Source: Candidatus Eiseniibacteriota bacterium (GTDB lineage: Bacteria; Eisenbacteria; RBG-16-71-46). Taken from it: 35,285 bases of DNA. Position numbers and translations under genes: made by a program. Location: NCBI GenBank assembly GCA_005893225.1, contig VBOT01000103.1, forward strand, positions 6,385 to 41,669, in the 5' to 3' direction. The notes below the pieces were generated by a model. The model saw only the letters and a list, made by a program, of their open reading frames with translations, ran no database searches and was not told where the DNA came from. Shown piece after piece: positions 3,176-35,285 of this stretch. Every line of letters begins with the position of its first letter. Positions within the stretch are counted from its first letter, which is position 1.

Positions 3176-4625
<1,450 letters not shown>

Positions 4626-9900: not shown

Positions 9901-11664
9901 CCCCTGCGCGGGCGCGCAGATCGTGGGCTTGCGCCGCCCGTCCGCGCAGGGGCCGCGGCTCGTCGAGGAGTAGATCTGGTTCGACACGTTGCCATTTCTC
10001 GTCCCGCCCGCGCCCACCGAGCTCTTGGCCGAGGCCGGCGAGCCGACCGTGTTAACGCCCCCCGAGTTTCCGTTGGAGAAGAAGATCAGGAAATCGGGAT
10101 GGTTCCACATGAACTGGTCGACCTGCTGGGAGTTGAGGTCGTAGTCGCCCATGACGGCGGCGCCCCAGGAGTTCGACGAGATGCGCGCCGCGCCGCCGGC
10201 GTTCCCGAGATAAGGTGGGAGGAAGAGGTCGTTCAGGTCCGGAAACGGGTCCACGGCATTGCTGAGGCCCGTGCCCGAGATGTCCATGAAATAGATCTTC
10301 GCGTACTTGGCCATCCCGTCCCTGTCGTCGACATTGATCCCGTCGTCGGTGCCGGCGATGCTGCACGCGGTGTGGGTGCCGTGGTAGGCGGCGGCCAGGT
10401 GGTCGCCGAACTCCACCAGCGGATCCGACGAGCCGAGCTTGTAGGCGATTACCTTGCGGTGGGTGGGATAGTCCCCGAACGTGGTCAGGCTCACGCTGGG
10501 ATCCCTGAACATGTCGTGCCCGACCTCGATCCCGGTGTCCGAGGTGGTCACGACCTGGCCCTCGCCGTGGATGCCCATGTCCCACACCCGGCGGTTCAAG
10601 GTGCCGATGCGCCCGGTCTGGACCACCCACTGCGCGATGGAATTATCGGCGGTAGGCTGGACGTAGGGCTCGATCCAGGCCACATCGGGGTGCTGCGCGA
10701 GCCGGGCCAGGCCCTCCCCCGCCAGGTTGATGCGCAGCAGCTTGTTGATGCCGTTGCTCGAGAAGCCCCTGACCCCATCGAGGTCGCCGTCCTCGAACAG
10801 GAGGACGCTGGCCGTCTGCGGGACCGTCGAGTCCAGCTCGAGCCGCCGGCTCAGCTTGTAGGCCGGCTGGTATGCGCCCACCCAGCCGACCTGGCTGTCG
10901 AGCGAGAGCTGCGAGGTGGCGCTCATCCGCACCAGGTACGAGTGATCGGGGATGTAGGCGATCACCTCGCCCCCGGCCTCGAGGATGGTGCTGCGGGTCT
11001 TCTCGGGATCGGCGGCCCCGTAGTAGACCAGGTAGGTGCGCTTTCCGACCGGCTGAATCGCCTCCTCCCGCAGGCTCGCGGGCAGCGCCGGCTCGCCCAG
11101 GCGCGGATCGATGCTGTAGCCCGACTGGAGCCGAATGCGGTCACCCGACGCTTCCGTCTCGGGCTCGATCGCGGCGATCGGCGAGGCCTTGAGGTACGGG
11201 GATGGCTCGACGCGATTCGAGAACTTGCGGATCACGAGGCAGGACCGCGTCTCGCCGAAGGAGAGCCCGCCTTTTCCTCCGAAGTCCGAGCCCGCCGACC
11301 AGTAGAGCCGGGCGTCCCGATCGAGCTTGATCCCGACCTCCTCGAGCGAGGTGACCGGGTGGCTCAGCGTATACACCTGGACCGGCCCGCCGGCCGGCAG
11401 GCTCGTCCAGCCGCGGGCATCGAAGGGAGCGCGCGACACGAGGAGCAGATGGCGCACCGCGCCGCTCGGCGCCCTCCACGCGAAGCGCAGGCCGCCCTCG
11501 TACAGCGTGGCGTCGGCATCGGGGGACACCAACTCAGGTGCGGGCAACCTGCCCCCGGGCAGCGACGCCCGGGCCGGATGGGACCCCGGCAGCATCGCGA
11601 GGGCAAGGAGCAGGGTCAACACCCAGGGATTCAGGCCGACGCGGGCTCGACGAACCGAACTCAT
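6943..11664 (-). CDS. Secreted S8 subtilisin-like protease with multidomain C-terminus and FlgD-like sorting tail
   Basis: This 1573-residue protein has a signal peptide (about 1-33, ending ARA) and a long N-terminal region that includes a propeptide-like YLVYYGAADPEKTRS section near 211-226. The subtilase domain (about 345-640) has the triad D376 (SDTG), H428 (HGTH) and S606 (GTSMASP). After it come a beta-sandwich (about 690-800), Ig-like segments, a fibronectin III-like domain (about 916-1000), and a GATase/ThuA-like Rossmann domain (about 1010-1250, YDGPGYERDV and LTLYLDGGGRLVTVGHDIG). Two more Ig-like units and a FlgD-like tail (about 1481-1573, QNAPNPV...YDLQGRQV...GVYYYRLQAGG) complete it. 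Such tails act as type IX-like C-terminal sorting signals. The start is supported by GGAGGA five bases upstream. Its substrate is unknown; it is probably an exported scavenging protease. Confidence 0.93.
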   Translation of the reverse strand: MSSVRRARVGLNPWVLTLLLALAMLPGSHPARASLPGGRLPAPELVSPDADATLYEGGLRFAWRAPSGAVRHLLLVSRAPFDARGWTSLPAGGPVQVYTLSHPVTSLEEVGIKLDRDARLYWSAGSDFGGKGGLSFGETRSCLVIRKFSNRVEPSPYLKASPIAAIEPETEASGDRIRLQSGYSIDPRLGEPALPASLREEAIQPVGKRTYLVYYGAADPEKTRSTILEAGGEVIAYIPDHSYLVRMSATSQLSLDSQVGWVGAYQPAYKLSRRLELDSTVPQTASVLLFEDGDLDGVRGFSSNGINKLLRINLAGEGLARLAQHPDVAWIEPYVQPTADNSIAQWVVQTGRIGTLNRRVWDMGIHGEGQVVTTSDTGIEVGHDMFRDPSVSLTTFGDYPTHRKVIAYKLGSSDPLVEFGDHLAAAYHGTHTACSIAGTDDGINVDDRDGMAKYAKIYFMDISGTGLSNAVDPFPDLNDLFLPPYLGNAGGAARISSNSWGAAVMGDYDLNSQQVDQFMWNHPDFLIFFSNGNSGGVNTVGSPASAKSSVGAGGTRNGNVSNQIYSSTSRGPCADGRRKPTICAPAQGISSAYTAPSNYQSLSGTSMASPIMAGATALLRQYCTEGWYPTGTKVPANGFTPSAALLKAMAVNSGDNDVTGFTAPDNNIGFGRIDCDSVLYFAGDQRRLLLVDYTAGLGHLQSIEYQVNVTDGTIPLEVTLCWTDYPGDPIGTTQLVNNLNLTVTNGSLTYKGNVYSGGYSATGNVYDPYNVEEAVRIKTPSAGLWTIRIDGVNVPFGPQPFGLCITGGIGTNAGIVTLDRASYGSASTVEVQVTDTNAPASVSVSLSSPTEPGGEPLTLSGSNGVYTGSLPLSPFAGSAGNGTLQVSNGDVITATYQDASPAATVTAAARVSIAPPLITQVTTANQGGGDVVVQWTTNSNSTSKVYYGTTPSLGQSSALDPVAVLSHQVLLSGLTVGQTYYYDVESQDLNGNLTRDDNGTGHHVFTVRPVGDILLVYDGPGYERDVRYQTAFAGTGWTYDNWKGPLSSNPVVGDLTEGMRAYKVVWWQNGLENYPPFSDAARDALTLYLDGGGRLVTVGHDIGWANADPTSPFYSAERASWLQNTLHTSFLSDPPPPGWPVVTGIASDPISGAYTAGAPYGEHRSGASGDEIASVPGAGTANYTWLSGDVSPDYCGFRWESSGPLGTPGSGVWGGAKSRLVTMYFEWSGVEPAEDFSGIREDIMSKTLIWLLGRDKPSVAVTSPNGGETITADNASIGWTESTSGGTGVASRTLEYSVDDGQSWVTIASGVGASPYSWSLTSIPNTTRGRVRVRVADNGAPSFAGQDESDQVFAIQRANGDAVGPVVVAGSIQVSPDPVNNQAAATLTATVTDAGTGGADVAMAEWSFGATPAAAGVGHAMTGSYTSSTVAVSAALKTGSFSPGTWTLWVRGRDVHGNWGQAKGLPVVVNGPQPTDASGTPRVFALAQNAPNPVLESTTITFAVPEAGEVWLAIYDLQGRQVKSLFRGDLPAGVHTAAWNRIDEGGKRVDPGVYYYRLQAGGKTFERRMVALR

Positions 11665-15697: not shown

Positions 15698-17104
15698 TCA
15701 CTCGATCTCGAGCGCCACGTAGATCAATCGCCCGCGACGGTTTACGTGCAGCGCGAGCGATGACCCGGCCGGGAGCCCCGATACCAGCGCCCGCAGCTCG
15801 TCGAGCGTGGCCACCGACCGGCCGTTCGCTGCGAGAATCACGTCTCCCGGCTGCAAGCCCCCTTCCTCGGCGGCGGGCGGCGGGAGCGTGAGCCCGGCCA
15901 CCGCCACGCCCTGGGCTGCACGAAGCCAGGGCAGCATCGGCGACAGCTGCTCGTCCACCGTGATCCCCAGAATCCCGAGACGCGGCACCTGGTTCCCCTC
16001 CCGGGAGACCCTGGCCGCCATGCGCCCGACCTCGTCATCGCGCTCGCCCACCTCGACCGCGACCGTGCGCACGGCTCCATGGCGTGAGACGTGAAGGTTC
16101 ACCCTCGAGCCCACGGGGCGCCGGTAGAGGTTGACGTCGAACTGGCGGCCGTTCTCCATCGGCTTGCCGTCCATCTCCAGGACCACGTCGCCGGGCTGGA
16201 GCCCCGCGCCGGCCGCCGGGCCTCCGGGCCGGACATCGGAAAGGATCACGCCCCAGATCCGGTCGAGCCCGAGCCCGCCCGCGAGGGTCGGCGTGATGGT
16301 CTGGGCCACGACGCCGATGTCGCCGCGGTGCACGAAGCCAAGCGTCTTGAGCTGCTGGTAGACGGCGACCACGATGTTGCTCGGCGCCGCGAATCCGATC
16401 CCCTCGTTCCCGCCGGACTGGCTGAAGATGGAGGTGTTCACGCCCACCAGCTTGCCGCGCGCGTCCACCAGCGCCCCGCCGCTGTTGCCGGGGTTGATCG
16501 CGGCGTCGGTCTGGACGTAAACCATGCGGTCTTCGGGCCGGAGCTGCCTCCCGGTCGCGCTCACGATTCCCATCGTGATGCTGTTCTGGAGCCCGAGCGG
16601 GCTCCCCACCGCGAGGACGATCTGTCCTGCCTTGAGCCCGTCCGAGTCCCCGAACTCGAGATGCGGGAGGTTGCGCTCTTCGATGCGGAGCACCGCGAGG
16701 TCGGTCTCGACGTCGACCCCGACCAGATGAGCCGGCACGAGCTTGCCGGGCGGCCGGACCAGGGATCGGCCAGGTCCGCTTCCAGCCGCCGGCACCGCGA
16801 GCACCACCTCGATGCGGCGCGCACCCGCGACCACGTGGGCATTCGTCACGATGTCGCCGTCCGGCGAAACGATCACGCCGGAGCCGCCCTGACGCTGGAG
16901 GCCTAGGTAGCCTTCCCCCTCGCCCAGCGGGCCGATCGAGGAGACGCGCACCTGAACCACCGACGGGGTGACCCGGGCGGCAACCGCCTCGAAGGTGGCG
17001 CTGAGATCGCCGAACGACGCGCTTCCGGGGGCCGGAGCGGCGACGGCATGACGCGCCATGGCTCCCGAGAACAGGATCGCCAGGACCCAGGCCGACACCC
17101 TCAC
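15698..17104 (-). CDS. Periplasmic HtrA/Deg-type serine protease with two PDZ domains
   Basis: This 468-residue protein starts at a GTG (17104) that overlaps the TPR gene stop as GTGA. It has a signal peptide (about 1-22, ending AVA) and a trypsin-like domain with catalytic H90 (TNAHVV), D135 (ETDLAVL) and S208 (NPGNSGGAL). PDZ1 (about 265-360, GLQPGDVVLEMDGKP) and PDZ2 (about 375-468, GLQPGDVILAANGRS) follow. HtrA proteases degrade or chaperone misfolded envelope proteins. A frame open further upstream inside the TPR gene is not needed, because the signal peptide begins at this GTG. Unlike the membrane-anchored HtrA at 27434-28921, this one appears soluble or cleaved, so the genome has at least two Deg paralogues. 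Coupling to the TPR gene suggests a shared function. Confidence 0.93.
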   Translation of the reverse strand: MRVSAWVLAILFSGAMARHAVAAPAPGSASFGDLSATFEAVAARVTPSVVQVRVSSIGPLGEGEGYLGLQRQGGSGVIVSPDGDIVTNAHVVAGARRIEVVLAVPAAGSGPGRSLVRPPGKLVPAHLVGVDVETDLAVLRIEERNLPHLEFGDSDGLKAGQIVLAVGSPLGLQNSITMGIVSATGRQLRPEDRMVYVQTDAAINPGNSGGALVDARGKLVGVNTSIFSQSGGNEGIGFAAPSNIVVAVYQQLKTLGFVHRGDIGVVAQTITPTLAGGLGLDRIWGVILSDVRPGGPAAGAGLQPGDVVLEMDGKPMENGRQFDVNLYRRPVGSRVNLHVSRHGAVRTVAVEVGERDDEVGRMAARVSREGNQVPRLGILGITVDEQLSPMLPWLRAAQGVAVAGLTLPPPAAEEGGLQPGDVILAANGRSVATLDELRALVSGLPAGSSLALHVNRRGRLIYVALEIE

Positions 17105-27433: not shown

Positions 27434-28921
27434 CTAGTCGATGCGCAGCGCCACGAAGCGGGACCGGCCGTTGCTGTTGACCAGCAATACCGCCGGCTTG
27501 TGAGCCATCTTGGCGTCGCGCAACGCCTTGGTGAATCCGGCCGCGGTCGCGATCGGCTTGCCGCTCACCTCTTCGACGATGTCGCCGGGCTGAATCCCTT
27601 CTTCGGAAGCGTTGCTGTCGTCCTCGACGTCCGTGACCATGACGCCCGACTTGGCCTTGGCGTTGATCTTCTCGTCGGCGGTCAGCTCGCGCACCTTGAG
27701 GCCGGCGAGGCTCTCGCTCGCCTCGGGCTGGGAACCGTTCCCGGGGGTCGCGCTCGCCAGTTTCTGCTCGTCGCGGCTCTCGAGGGTCACGTTGAGCGTC
27801 ACGCGCTTCCCGTCCCTCAGCACCACGATCGGCACCCGCTTCCCGACCGGTGTATCGGCCACCTTGAGCCTGAACTTTGCCATGTCGGTGACCGGCTCGC
27901 CGTTGTACTCGACCACGACGTCGTTGCGCCTGAGCCCGGCGCGCGACGCCGGCGAGTCCTCCACCACGTTCTGGATCAGCACGCCCTGGGTGCCGTTGAT
28001 GCCGAAGCCTTCGGCGATCTCAGGGGTGAGCTCGGCGAGATAGACGCCGAGCATCGCCCGCTTGACCTGGCCGCTCGCCATGAGCTGCTGGGCGACGTGC
28101 TTGGCCAGGTTGATCGGAATCGCGAAGCCGATGCCCTGGCCGCTGGTGTTGATCGCGGTGTTGATCCCGATCGCCTCGCCGCGGATGTTGCAGAGCGGGC
28201 CGCCGGAGTTGCCGAAGTTGATCGAGGCGTCGGTCTGGATGAAGTCCTGGAACGCCGGCGTTCCGCCGAAGATGTTGAGATCCGAGCGCCCGGTGGCGCT
28301 GACGATGCCGACCGTCACCGAACCGCGCAGCTGGCCGAGCGGGTTGCCAATCGCGATCGCCCAGTCGCCCACCCGGAGCCGATCCGAGTCGCCGAGCTGC
28401 AGCACCGGCAGGTCGTCGCCGTTGATCTTGATGACCGCCACGTCGGTCTCGGGATCGGTGCCGATCACCTTGGCCTTGAACGAGCGCTTGTCGTTTAGGG
28501 TCACCGTGATGTCGCTGGCATTCTGCACCACGTGGTTGTTGGTGAGGATGTGTCCCTCCCGGTCGATGATGAAGCCCGACCCGGAGCTCGGCATCGTCCT
28601 GGGATGCCGCATCTCCTGCCCGAAGAAGCGCCGGAACAGCTCCTCCTGGGGATCGTCGGGGTCGTTCGCGCCGCCGACCTTCTTCTTGACGTCGACGAAC
28701 ACCACGGCGGGCAGCGTGCGCTCGACCACGCCGACGAACGGGCTATCGCCTTCTGGCGCGGTTGTGGCCGCCAGCGCCGCCGACTCGCTGGTCGGCGAGC
28801 GTTTGAGCTCGAGGCCGGCGCTCAGGCCCAGGCCGATGACGAGCCCGACCAGGATCAGCGCGATCGCGCCGATGTAGTAGCTGCGCGGGCCTGTGTTGTG
28901 AGGGGCATCTTGGGGTGTCAT
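27434..28921 (-). CDS. htrA: Membrane-anchored HtrA/DegQ-type serine protease with two PDZ domains
   Basis: This 495-residue protein has an uncleaved N-terminal membrane segment (about 16-35) after a short cytoplasmic tail. Its protease domain (about 65-265) has catalytic H130 (TNNHVV), D160 (ETDVAVI) and S239 (NFGNSGGPL). Acidic LA-loop residues (DPDDPQEELFRRFFGQ) precede PDZ1 (about 280-375, GVLIQNVVEDSPASRAGL) and PDZ2 (about 395-495, GIQPGDIVEEVSGKP). HtrA proteins degrade unfolded envelope proteins; the loop and double PDZ are DegP/DegQ-like, while the anchor is DegS-like. AAGGAGG just upstream fixes the ATG at 28921. It has its own candidate promoter and probably cotranscribes, at least in part, with the amidase gene. 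It is the second HtrA in the window. Confidence 0.96.
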   Translation of the reverse strand: MTPQDAPHNTGPRSYYIGAIALILVGLVIGLGLSAGLELKRSPTSESAALAATTAPEGDSPFVGVVERTLPAVVFVDVKKKVGGANDPDDPQEELFRRFFGQEMRHPRTMPSSGSGFIIDREGHILTNNHVVQNASDITVTLNDKRSFKAKVIGTDPETDVAVIKINGDDLPVLQLGDSDRLRVGDWAIAIGNPLGQLRGSVTVGIVSATGRSDLNIFGGTPAFQDFIQTDASINFGNSGGPLCNIRGEAIGINTAINTSGQGIGFAIPINLAKHVAQQLMASGQVKRAMLGVYLAELTPEIAEGFGINGTQGVLIQNVVEDSPASRAGLRRNDVVVEYNGEPVTDMAKFRLKVADTPVGKRVPIVVLRDGKRVTLNVTLESRDEQKLASATPGNGSQPEASESLAGLKVRELTADEKINAKAKSGVMVTDVEDDSNASEEGIQPGDIVEEVSGKPIATAAGFTKALRDAKMAHKPAVLLVNSNGRSRFVALRID

Positions 28922-31009: not shown

Positions 31010-32479
31010 TCAGCGGTCGCGCCTTCGGGAAGGACGCTGGGGCTCGGAGCGCGAGTCACCGGGCGGATCAGCTTTTCGCTCGCGTGGCGGCGCGGACCAC
31101 GATCCGCCCCTCGGGGGCGGTCCCTGGCGCGGCTGCTCGACCTTGGGTGGACTCGAGTCACGCTCGCGACGACCTCCCGGCCACTGGAACCGGGGCTGAT
31201 CCTGGTCCCGCCGCCGATCGAAGCGTGGCTCTTCCCGGGGACGAGGCGGCTGCTCGCTCCTTGGCCGCTCGACGCGCGGTGCCGGGTCGGCTTCCGGCTG
31301 GCTGGAACCCTGGGCGCCGCCCCTCGATGTCGGAGGCTCGATGGAGCGCGGCCCCCTCGTCGCCGGCTCGCCCTGGGGCGGATCGAGGGTTCTGACGCGC
31401 TGGGCCGGCCCGTTCCCGCCCCATCTCCATTGGCGGGTGTCCGGGGGTCGGCCGGCCGGGTTCTGGACGAGCCCCGTCCCCCCGGGGCGCTCGAAGCGGT
31501 GCGCCACCGCCAGGAAGCCCGGAGGCAGGGACTTCGGGTCCTTCCACCTGCGCCCTTCGTCGGACTTGCTCGGCGGCACGTAGCCGGGAGGAGGAGGCGA
31601 CTTGTAGCGCGTCAGCGAGCCGTGCCACAGGCTCCGCCACCGGCCCCAGCCGTCCCACGACGAGTAGAAAGGTCGGCCGTAGAGGCCGTCGCGGAAGCGC
31701 GGTGGGCAGTCCTGCCGGTAGACGTACACGTAGTAGGGCACGTTGCCGAACCAGTACGAGGGGCCCCAGCCCCATCCCCAGTTGATGCGGAAATCGAACG
31801 CGCTGCAGCGGGCGTAGTAGGGGTCGAAGCCGTCCCACCACGCCCACATGTTCGGCCGATGGCAGTCGTTGCAGAGGTAGCGCGGGTAGCGGACCTCGTG
31901 GTGGACGTAGTAGGTGACGTAGGCGGTGGCGAACGAATCCTCGTCTTCCGGATGGTCGAGCACGCGCCGGCGAATCCGCTCCATGGCCACGAACGGGTCG
32001 CCGGCGATCTGGCCCTCGGCCGTCACGCCCTCCTCCTCGCTCTGGTCGCTCGGCCTCCCGTAGTAGCCCATCTCGTCGCCCTTGGAATCGTAGGGCCTCA
32101 GGTACCAGGGCAGGCCCTTGAAGCGGTCGCTCGAGGCGACCGCCACGACGTAACCCTCGCCGACCGGCCCCTGGACCACCAGCTCGGCGCTCGACTCGTC
32201 CTGGGGCAGGCGCATGGACTGCCCGGCCTCGATCCAGTCGGAGCCGCCCTCGTAGGGGAAGAGGACGTGCACGTAGCCTTGGGCGTCGATCTCGTACACC
32301 ATGAGGTGCGCGTCGTCCGTCGCCTTCACCTTGATCTGGATCCTCTCGCCCGGCTGGTAGACCCCCTCGTCCCCGCGGTCGGTCGACACGTTCACGGACA
32401 GCGCGCGGGCCAGCGCGGGGCCCGGGAGCGCCAGGCTCCCGGCCAGCGCGGCCGCCAATACCCATCTCGATGTCTTCAT
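31010..32479 (-). CDS. DUF4384-domain secreted protein with CxxCH motif and Pro/Arg-rich tail
   Basis: From the ATG at 32479 this gives 489 residues: a signal peptide (about 1-24, ending ALA), then a DUF4384-type domain (about 28-120, RGDEGVYQPGERIQIKVKA and DAHLMVYEID, VHVLFP), whose relatives occur in surface and kinase-linked proteins. The central part (about 160-290) is rich in Trp and Tyr and contains LCNDCHRP (C203, C206, H207), a formal c-type heme motif, followed by FDPYYARC (C225) and another Cys at 258. The last 180 residues are Pro/Arg/Gly-rich and probably disordered. The start overlaps the stop of the upstream frame (TGATG), and AAGGAGC precedes it. A similar CxDCH...FDPYYxxC block occurs in the lipoprotein encoded upstream. 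Function is unknown. Confidence 0.85.
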   Translation of the reverse strand: MKTSRWVLAAALAGSLALPGPALARALSVNVSTDRGDEGVYQPGERIQIKVKATDDAHLMVYEIDAQGYVHVLFPYEGGSDWIEAGQSMRLPQDESSAELVVQGPVGEGYVVAVASSDRFKGLPWYLRPYDSKGDEMGYYGRPSDQSEEEGVTAEGQIAGDPFVAMERIRRRVLDHPEDEDSFATAYVTYYVHHEVRYPRYLCNDCHRPNMWAWWDGFDPYYARCSAFDFRINWGWGWGPSYWFGNVPYYVYVYRQDCPPRFRDGLYGRPFYSSWDGWGRWRSLWHGSLTRYKSPPPPGYVPPSKSDEGRRWKDPKSLPPGFLAVAHRFERPGGTGLVQNPAGRPPDTRQWRWGGNGPAQRVRTLDPPQGEPATRGPRSIEPPTSRGGAQGSSQPEADPAPRVERPRSEQPPRPREEPRFDRRRDQDQPRFQWPGGRRERDSSPPKVEQPRQGPPPRGGSWSAPPRERKADPPGDSRSEPQRPSRRRDR

Positions 32480-32790
32480 CACGAGGCTCCTTCGGGCGGC
32501 GAGGCGAGCGACTCGGACCCGCCGGACCCGCCATCGGCGGGTGCCCTCGCGCCATCGTGGCGCTTGTGCTTCTTCCTACCCGGCCCCTCCCGATTTTCTT
32601 CCCGAGACTTTGGACGGCTCAGGGATCGGTCCGGTTCCTCCGGTCGCTGGCGCCGCTCCTGGCGCCAGGACTCGTAGTCCCGCGGGTCCCTGTAGCGCGG
32701 CTGGGCGCGGTAGTCCTCGGGATATGTATAGCGGCCGAAGTCTCTGTGGCTCTCGCGGATCCGGACGTAACGGCTCCGGTAAGTTACGAT
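32479..32790 (-). pseudogene. Probable true 3' part of the CxxCH lipoprotein gene, out of frame
   Basis: A second reading frame continues after about 32790 as YRSRYVRIRESHRDFGRY, then YPEDYRAQPRYRDP, then a Lys/Arg-rich tail ending at a TGA that overlaps the DUF4384 ATG (TGATG). That overlap copies the coupling seen between other genes here. Removing one base from the AA at 32781-32782 joins the lipoprotein frame to this one as DWCNRNYRSRYVRIRE. I infer that the intact gene ran 32968-32479 and that the sequence carries a +1 insertion, real or technical. Confidence 0.6.
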
Positions 32791-32975: not shown

Positions 32976-33803
32976 CTAGGGCCAGAGGATCGAACGGCGG
33001 ACCCGGGCGGCTTCGCGAACCGGGCGGGCGGCGAGCTCGCCGTTGTCACGATCGATCTGGTAGGCCCAATCGAACTTCACCCGGGACGGCCCCACGCTCG
33101 TGACGCGGAACTTCGCGTAGTGAGTCTCAGCCGTTCCCGCCCCCGTTTCCACCACGTAGCAGTGTCCGACGATCATCTCGGCAGTCCCGCTCGGCGCCCA
33201 CCCGTCGCTGGGCGCGAAATCCACGGCATCCAGGCTCGTGGCATAGCCCGCGTCCTGGATCTTAACGTCTTGGAACGCCGCAAACATGACGTAGAGGCTA
33301 TCCCGCGCCCCGAAGAAGATGTCCGCCCCGTTGTCGTCGTAGGGAACCGCGGCGTAGGCGGAGAAGTCGTATCCGCTCGTCGAGGGGCTGTCCAGGTAGT
33401 TGTCCAGCACGCGATCGAACCCGGCGGGGCGAGGAGTGTCGAACACGTCCTCGGGCGGGAAGTCGCCCGAGAGCGCGCTCTCGTTGCCGGCCCGGTCGTA
33501 CGCCGCCACCGCGAAGAACCGCGTGACGCCGTTGCTCAGGCTTTCGACCTGAAACTCGGCGCCGGTGGTCGAACCCACTGGGCGGAAGGGGCAGTCGGGC
33601 CCCGAGGCGCAGGCGGCTTGGAAGACCCGATAGCCGGCGACGTCGGACTCGGTGTTGGGCAGCCACCTAAGGGTGACCTCGTGATCGCCGGTGATGCTGT
33701 AGAGGCCGCGGGGCGCCGCGGGTGGCGTGGTGTCGCGAGGCGCCGTGGTGTCGTGACATCCGGCGAGGAGGAGAGCGAGCGTCAGCAGAGTGACCTTGAG
33801 CAT
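32976..33803 (-). CDS. Lipoprotein with fibronectin type III domain
   Basis: From the ATG at 33803 this gives 275 residues with a lipoprotein signal (MLKVTLLTLALLLAGC, lipid Cys at 16). A fibronectin III-like domain (about 25-115) follows: TPPAAPRGLYSI, VTLRWLPN, VAGYRVFQA and FFAVAAYDRAGNES. The remaining 160 residues are an unrecognised beta-rich domain with many Asp, Tyr and Phe (YDFSAYAAVPYDDNGADIFF). FN3-type lipoproteins are usually outer-membrane or surface proteins of unknown binding partner. GGGGG lies upstream of the chosen ATG; in-frame starts further upstream (33815, 33899) would spoil the lipoprotein signal. It is first in the unit leading to the CxxCH lipoprotein and the DUF4384 protein. 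Confidence 0.85.
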   Translation of the reverse strand: MLKVTLLTLALLLAGCHDTTAPRDTTPPAAPRGLYSITGDHEVTLRWLPNTESDVAGYRVFQAACASGPDCPFRPVGSTTGAEFQVESLSNGVTRFFAVAAYDRAGNESALSGDFPPEDVFDTPRPAGFDRVLDNYLDSPSTSGYDFSAYAAVPYDDNGADIFFGARDSLYVMFAAFQDVKIQDAGYATSLDAVDFAPSDGWAPSGTAEMIVGHCYVVETGAGTAETHYAKFRVTSVGPSRVKFDWAYQIDRDNGELAARPVREAARVRRSILWP

Positions 33804-33850
33804 CGGAGCCCCCATAACTCGAAAGCTAGCGCGGGTTTCGATTCGACGCC

Positions 33851-33856
33851 TATATA
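33851..33856 (-). promoter_or_regulatory. Possible -10 box for the FN3 lipoprotein unit
   Basis: TATATA sits about 50 bases upstream of the ATG at 33803 in otherwise GC-rich DNA. No convincing -35 hexamer is 16-18 bases further upstream, so this is tentative. Confidence 0.3.
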
Positions 33857-34108
33857 GGAGGGCAACCGACGTGCCATGCCGCGAAGTCCTAAGCGGCACT
33901 CGGGGCGCTCGCCCAAGTCATTGGCGGGCAATGAGGCCGGGGCTCGAAGGGATTGCTGGCAGGAGGCCGGGGCGTGCGGTCGCGTCGCACGTGTGCCAGC
34001 GATGCAACACGGGGCGAGAGGCTGAGATCCGCTGGGAGGGAGCGCCCGAGTGGGCGCCTCACGCGGAACCGGGACCGACAACTCGCTGGCGCGTCCCGGC
34101 CAAAAACG

Positions 34109-34184
34109 AGGACACCGGCCGTCTTCGCAACATCAGCCGAGACATCCCCCAGTGTTGGCCGACGCGCGGGTAGACCGGTGTCCT
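34109..34184. repeat. 10-bp inverted repeat enclosing 56 bases
   Basis: AGGACACCGG and CCGGTGTCCT are perfect inverted copies. The spacing suits a long hairpin or the ends of a small remnant element; no transposase is present. Confidence 0.4.
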
Positions 34185-34685
34185 AAACCCCCGGGGCCCT
34201 TGGCACCTCCTCGGCGGGAGGCGGAAACCGGTTCCGCCTTGCCAACCGCCAACCGTTCCAACCCAAGAGTCCCGGGGAAGATTGATTGCAACTCCGAGCT
34301 AGCCGGTCGCAGAGGTCGGAACGCTGTCGTGAAGACTGGGGCTCGTACCCTCGAACCGATTCTCTACGATACCGGCTAGCCCAGATGATTGGTCCGGCAA
34401 TGAGCCGCCGAACTTTTTGGAGGTCCCCCCCCTCCGACAACTAGGCATTGCACCCCGCGTGCCACCACGTCGACCGCGAGCAACTTTGACTGCAATGCGT
34501 TGCAGGACATCGTCTTGCATATTGGTCGCGAGCGCGTCCTGCGCCTCCAGCTTTCCGCCCCAGGACCGCCCACCTGGCAAACAAAATATGACGGTTCGGC
34601 CGGCTCCGCCGTAACCGCCATCGTGGCAGCGTCCTTTTTGTAAAGGGGTTTTAGAGGCTGACTGTCAAGTAATGATCTAAGCGTG

Positions 34686-34699
34686 GGGCCGTGCGGCCC
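34686..34699 (-). terminator. Small GC hairpin after the Fis-domain fragment
   Basis: GGGCC and GGCCC arms around a 4-base loop lie 14 bases after the stop at 34713 on the minus strand. No T-tract follows directly, so termination is uncertain. Confidence 0.3.
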
Positions 34700-34712
34700 G
34701 GACGGAGAGGAT

Positions 34713-34883
34713 CTAGCGGGTGGCCTTGCGGCGCTCGAGCTGGAACGCGCGGATCCTGGCGAGCAGCGTGGGATAGCTGAGGCCGAGCTCGCGGGCCGCC
34801 CGCGCCTTGTTCCAGCGATGGCGGTCCAAGGCCTGAGCGATCATCCGGCGCTCGAGCTCCGTCACGTTCGACCGCAGCGAGAT
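34713..34883 (-). pseudogene. C-terminal Fis-type HTH of a sigma54 activator (5' part missing)
   Basis: The minus strand encodes SLRSNVTELERRMIAQAL, then NKARAARELGLSYPTLLARI and RAFQLERRKATR, followed by TAG. This is the typical C-terminal DNA-binding domain of NtrC-family regulators, with helix-turn-helix ARELGLSYPTLLARIR. Similarity stops abruptly near 34880, where a receiver or AAA+ domain should precede it. Beyond that point the plus strand encodes part of an AAA+ domain instead. The frame is formally open further upstream to an ATG at 34967, but those residues are antisense to the AAA+ fragment. It is therefore a truncated gene, from rearrangement or from an assembly join. Confidence 0.75.
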
Positions 34884-35285
34884 CCGGCCGGTGGGGGCCA
34901 CCCGCAGCAAGAAGGTCGATGCCCGCGTCATCTGCGCCACGGGGATCGACCTGCGCGAGCGCATCAAGGAGGGCAGGTTCCTCGAGGACCTCTACTACCG
35001 GCTCAACGACATCACCGTCCGGGTCCCCACGCTGCGCGAGCGCCGCGAGGACATCCCGGTGCTGGTTCAGCACTTCCTCACCTACTATTCGCGACAGATG
35101 GAGAAGCGGGTGGGCGGGTTCTCGCCCGAGGTGCTCCGGATCTTCCTCGAGTACGAGTGGCGGGGGAACGTGCGCGAGCTGGAGAAGACGGTGAAGCGCA
35201 TGGTGGTGCTGGCCGACGATGGCGATGCTCTCGGCGTGACGCTGCTGCCTCTCGAGATGCGGGAGAATGCGGCGGCGCCGGCGCC
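34879..35285 (+). pseudogene. AAA+ sigma54-interaction domain fragment, truncated 5', open at window end
   Basis: The plus strand from about 34879 reads EIRPVGATRSKKVDARVI, CATGIDLRERIKEGRFLEDLYYRLND, RVPTLRERREDIPVLVQHFL and YEWRGNVRELEKTVKRMV, the second half of a sigma54 AAA+ domain. It includes the sensor I region (usually ATN, here ATG), the arginine finger region (FLEDLYYRL) and sensor II (GNVRELE). Walker A, GAFTGA and Walker B are absent. The frame is closed by a stop at 34834-34836 and has no plausible start. It continues past the window end, where its own Fis domain would be expected. The paralogous regulator at 3172-4629 is intact. Confidence 0.78.

Follow-up and report, generated by a model that had tools for sequence, protein, structure and literature searches.

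The window analysed here, 35,285 bases of DNA corresponding to positions 6385-41669 of contig C121, ends in two pieces of a sigma54 activator that lie on opposite strands and meet near position 34,880 (Table 1). The contig is 41,669 bases long, so position 35285 is its physical end, and the assembly to which it belongs is a draft of 219 contigs (3.37 Mb, 87.85% complete). Read on the minus strand from 34880 to 34713, the first piece translates as SLRSNVTELERR...RKATR followed by a stop codon, and matches the Pfam profile HTH_8 of the Fis family (E = 3.9e-14). The second, read on the plus strand from 34870 to 35285, translates as DRSEIRPVGATRSKK...MRENAAAPA, stays open up to the contig tip without a stop, and matches the end of the Sigma54_activat domain (profile positions 125-167 of 168, E = 2.4e-10) and AAA_lid_14 (E = 2.9e-25). 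The original prediction had placed a Fis-type HTH and half of an AAA+ domain head to head at this point, and the profile searches confirmed both; it had also held that neither piece follows the part that should precede it, in agreement with the in-frame stops that we found 37 codons upstream of the Fis piece and 11 codons upstream of the AAA+ piece. Both pieces are uneroded, with a mean column identity of 84% for the AAA+ piece against 10 orthologs. The sigma54 interaction domain that marks a bEBP is present, its second half in the window and the whole domain in an ortholog (G002), and so is the C-terminal Fis HTH, although in the window it occupies the strand opposite to the AAA+ piece.

Table 1 Features at the contig end and downstream of the regulator (window coordinates)
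Feature	Position	Strand	Basis
DUF4384 protein, next conserved downstream gene	31010..32482	minus	Synteny and Pfam
Conserved neighbour downstream of the regulator	32976..33899	minus	Relatives' loci L083-L088 match 33761-32982 or nearly so
Fis-type HTH, forming the regulator's native C-terminus with its stop codon	34713..34880	minus	HTH_8, ortholog identity, downstream synteny
13-bp join TCGACCGCAGCGA	34868..34880	both	LDRSE codons (AAA+) on plus, SLRS codons (Fis) on minus
Second half of AAA+ domain (sigma54 interaction and lid), to the contig tip	34868..35285	plus	Sigma54_activat, AAA_lid_14, orthologs
GGCGCCGGCGCC, a perfect palindrome of 12 bp ending the contig	35274..35285		Letters of the tip

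The genes from 33761 down to about 31010 also follow the regulator in relatives, and in the longer relative loci this shared order continues to 26050. Because these minus-strand genes are syntenic with those of relatives, the Fis end lies in its native place. The product of the nearest conserved neighbour had no Pfam match at E = 0.001. Between that gene and the end of the regulator, positions 33900-34712 form a spacer of about 0.8 kb with no convincing gene, and relatives have a comparable spacer. A tRNA search of the window returned none, and for positions 33000-35285 no Rfam match reached the gathering level; one match to 5.8S rRNA (14.2 against 42 bits) was taken as chance. Elsewhere in the window, the minus strand encodes a Trypsin-PDZ (HtrA-like) protease at 27440-28741, and a second minus-strand region at about 15704-16885 has 36-38% identity to the same relatives' proteins.

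To place the two pieces, we searched the AAA+ piece against 59 genomes, its own included, and found a match in every one. Across 19 loci from the same family, it shares 70-83% identity with an orthologous activator; for the same-family locus L096 the value is 83%. The best matches in the 19 same-family genomes had 70-82% identity in that search, and in 17 of these genomes the match lies inside an open frame of 1030-1082 codons; the remaining two frames have 744 codons (G009) and 176 codons (G011, where a contig end cuts the gene). The Fis piece matches the C-terminus of this same ortholog with 48-79% identity over 28 relative loci and 64-79% within the family. The ortholog in G002, with 1040 residues, carries TPR repeats, a GAF domain, a sigma54 AAA+ domain (residues 718-883), a lid (889-968) and a Fis domain (991-1029). 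A comparison of domain order took in 29 relative loci from the AAA+ search: in 28, all 19 same-family genomes among them, the Fis domain comes after the AAA+ domain without a change of strand; the 29th (L048) gave no Fis match reaching E = 1e-3. The comparison with sister genomes that the original prediction had proposed thus returned the uninverted order in every one of the 19. These alignments show the two pieces to be consecutive parts of one TPR-GAF-AAA+(sigma54)-Fis activator of about 1040 residues. It is the same gene as in relatives, where both parts share one orientation, whereas the present assembly divides it between two contigs and has the AAA+ piece flipped relative to the Fis end.

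The original prediction had instead seen halves of two activators and had listed recombination between two regulator genes among the possible causes. The genome offers material for such an event, whether by recombination or by mis-assembly, as 18 of its places match the AAA+ segment, the segment itself counted. One of these places is within the window (3265-4260, minus strand), where another sigma54 activator has both domains, AAA+ and Fis, in a single frame and orientation (open frame of 830 aa). Yet none of the places outside the segment exceeds 46% identity with the AAA+ piece, and matches to the Fis piece elsewhere in the genome have 31-48%, far below the identities of the family ortholog that is closest to both. 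Neither piece, then, derives from a paralog. In relatives, moreover, the same ortholog matches both pieces adjacently and on one strand, the downstream synteny sets the Fis end in the native position of this very gene, and searches of the genome gave no sign of a second copy of the ortholog. We therefore dismiss the two-gene reading as extremely improbable. An inverted duplication, in which the flipped piece would also occur elsewhere in its normal orientation, was likewise rejected, as only one copy was found in the genome.

Another contig, C98, carries the N-terminal part of the gene; there, ortholog residues 5-642 are matched up to base 11307 of 11309 and the genes upstream of the regulator follow the order seen in G002 and G001. 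As C98 stops at residue 642 and the AAA+ piece begins at about residue 833, some 190 codons (about 570 bp) are absent between the two contigs. A search of the genome with ortholog residues ~643-832 gave only matches at the level of paralogs (at most 54%). The first half of the AAA+ domain, with its Walker A part, was accordingly not found in the assembly, which is an assembly gap and makes no statement about the living cell. An overlap of the contig tips was considered and rejected: between the final 400 bases of C98 and positions 34601-35285 of the window, the longest common word among those tested was a single 13-mer, which has the same orientation in both and lies at a distance from either tip. 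C98 also encodes a second sigma54 activator upstream of the split regulator (3345-4265, minus strand, open frame of 959 aa), and three relative loci (L087, L093 and L094) have a match to it in the same neighbourhood.

The boundaries of the two pieces converge on 13 bp that can be read as codons of either. Matches of the AAA+ piece to the family orthologs start at 34867 on the plus strand, and those of the Fis piece start at 34880 for L084 and L088 and anywhere from 34832 to 34907 for other relatives. The 13 bp would thus be common to both native places, so that this species would have a second native copy of them in the intact gene. From the join to the tip, the flipped segment measures 405-418 bp. 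The codon equivalent to the last one at the tip is followed after 12-78 nt by the Fis domain in the 19 same-family loci, and the contig therefore stops about where the normal path would re-enter the Fis sequence. Short inverted matches of this kind have counterparts elsewhere in the genome: we counted 19 inverted 13-mer pairs spaced 350-500 bp apart in 482,930 bases, a count in which repeats longer than 13 enter more than once. Substrates for a fold-back are therefore not rare, and they also occur in ordinary coding DNA.

We consider the flip to be very probably a chimeric terminal join, made at the level of the assembly or of the library, at the end of the contig. What is observed has the form of a fold-back chimera, namely an inverted join between parts of one gene about 400 bp apart, with 13 bp of complementarity as deduced from relatives. 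The true chromosome would carry one intact TPR-GAF-AAA+-Fis gene that begins on C98, crosses the missing stretch of about 570 bp and ends on C121, on the window's minus strand. As to the route, we infer that 13 bases of the AAA+ sequence paired with 13 bases where the Fis sequence begins and primed a fold-back molecule, in which the Fis end would become linked to the distal end of the AAA+ piece. As the adjacent missing stretch would have lacked coverage, this chimeric path would have been the one left to the assembler, which would have followed it and halted about where it re-enters Fis sequence. The join would then exist in the library or the assembled sequence but be absent from cells. The original prediction named the right kind of cause when it listed a fold-back or chimeric assembly. 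Among the readings considered, its simplest explanation, an assembly join near a contig end, has the strongest support, and the flip in fact runs to the tip itself; what that explanation missed is that the pieces joined are neighbouring parts of one gene.

Chimeras of this form have precedents, and in amplified DNA strand-switching yields chiefly inverted joins of nearby segments at short complementarity. Among the single-cell multiple-displacement (MDA) chimeras reported by Lasken and Stockwell (2007, PMC1855051), 406 of 475 were inverted, and complementarity of up to 21 bp was present in 93.5% of the inverted joins less than 10 kb apart (PMC1855051). Those chimeras resemble the present join in that nearby segments are inverted at a short complementarity; they differ in that the present join is read from an assembled contig. 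Sonicated libraries are also described as yielding chimeric reads at inverted repeats (PMC10908179). There, too, the strand switches at an inverted repeat and the read continues in opposite-strand sequence, although the libraries in that report were human and targeted, whereas a join of that origin would here have passed into the assembly.

The same contig would be produced by a real, recent inversion of this segment of about 405-418 bp within the regulator gene, at a short inverted repeat, as a one-off mutation or an invertible off-switch. We consider this unlikely, and the comparison of contig ends bears on it from both sides. We compared ends with 1.6 Mb of one relative (G001) at a match limit of 200 bits, taking 42 contigs of the genome itself (40 plus C98 and the window part of C121) less three under 3,000 bases, which gave 68 ends. 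At 200 bits or more, 27 of the 68 ends matched, and the end of C121 was the only one flipped; of the others, 18 kept collinear order to a point no more than 300 bp from the tip, and in eight the match ended farther away. A looser pass flagged 12 ends, but the 11 besides C121 had at most 119 bits per match among the flip pairs listed, up to three for each end; none passed the 200-bit limit, and we read them as composition noise. A whole-contig blastn comparison, to which three short contigs contributed nothing, aligned 150,269 of 485,792 bases at 150 bits or more and again returned the C121 tip as the sole local flip. Since one flip was seen among 27 testable ends, a pervasive or systematic artefact is not demonstrated. 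The artefact, if it is one, is rare, and this control alone does not separate it from a rare real inversion. The absence of any other terminal flip speaks for such an inversion, as does the break of the contig about where its other breakpoint would fall. That the only flip extends to the very tip of a contig nevertheless leans mildly towards an artefact.

Intragenic invertons are phase-variable inversions inside coding sequences, and the present locus shares with them a coding segment flipped between what would be short inverted repeats. A flip here would sever the Fis domain from the AAA+ domain and, given the stop 37 codons before the Fis piece, the flipped gene would give no complete activator. 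Inverton repeats are described as 10-40 nt long (PMC11892184), a range into which the deduced 13-bp pair falls. This pair would flank the segment at one breakpoint, with the second breakpoint beyond the contig tip. The repeat is not conserved, however: perfect inverted matches between the two places do not exceed 10 bp in any of the 18 relatives compared, and the uninverted order is the one found in every same-family genome searched. Recombinases give a similar picture. Serine recombinases (PF00239) had no match in this genome, which is 87.85% complete, under a search that found matches in 10 of 14 genomes as a control. Tyrosine recombinases (PF00589) had five matches, none of them on C121 or C98, so that for the two families searched, in an incomplete genome, no invertase is nearby. 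Two of the five, on C132 (6433-6882 of 6883 bases) and C112 (8243-8698 of 8704 bases), end 1 and 6 bases from the contig ends; contig breaks therefore also fall in recombinase genes. Without a conserved repeat or a searched-for recombinase on either contig, and with a single orientation in the assembly, the locus departs from known intragenic invertons. Little favours an invertible regulator, and a programmed inversion, which would make the locus an inverton inside the TPR-GAF-AAA+-Fis activator gene of an uncultured, Eisenbacteria-like lineage, is highly doubtful.

Our literature searches listed nothing on this regulator gene or this join. Were the flip real, the gene would be a switchable sigma54 activator, of which we know of none in this lineage; as an inverton, its flip of about 410 bp would uncouple the sigma54-contacting ATPase from the DNA-binding domain and so act as a reversible off-switch. 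Under the favoured reading, a chimeric join at the contig end, the locus most likely holds an ordinary sigma54 activator gene and not a new kind of regulator. The case carries a caution: when part of a gene is flipped at the tip of a contig, it can be mistaken for a regulator that is rearranged or invertible, and most of such a case is resolved by alignment to an intact ortholog together with the position of the contig end.
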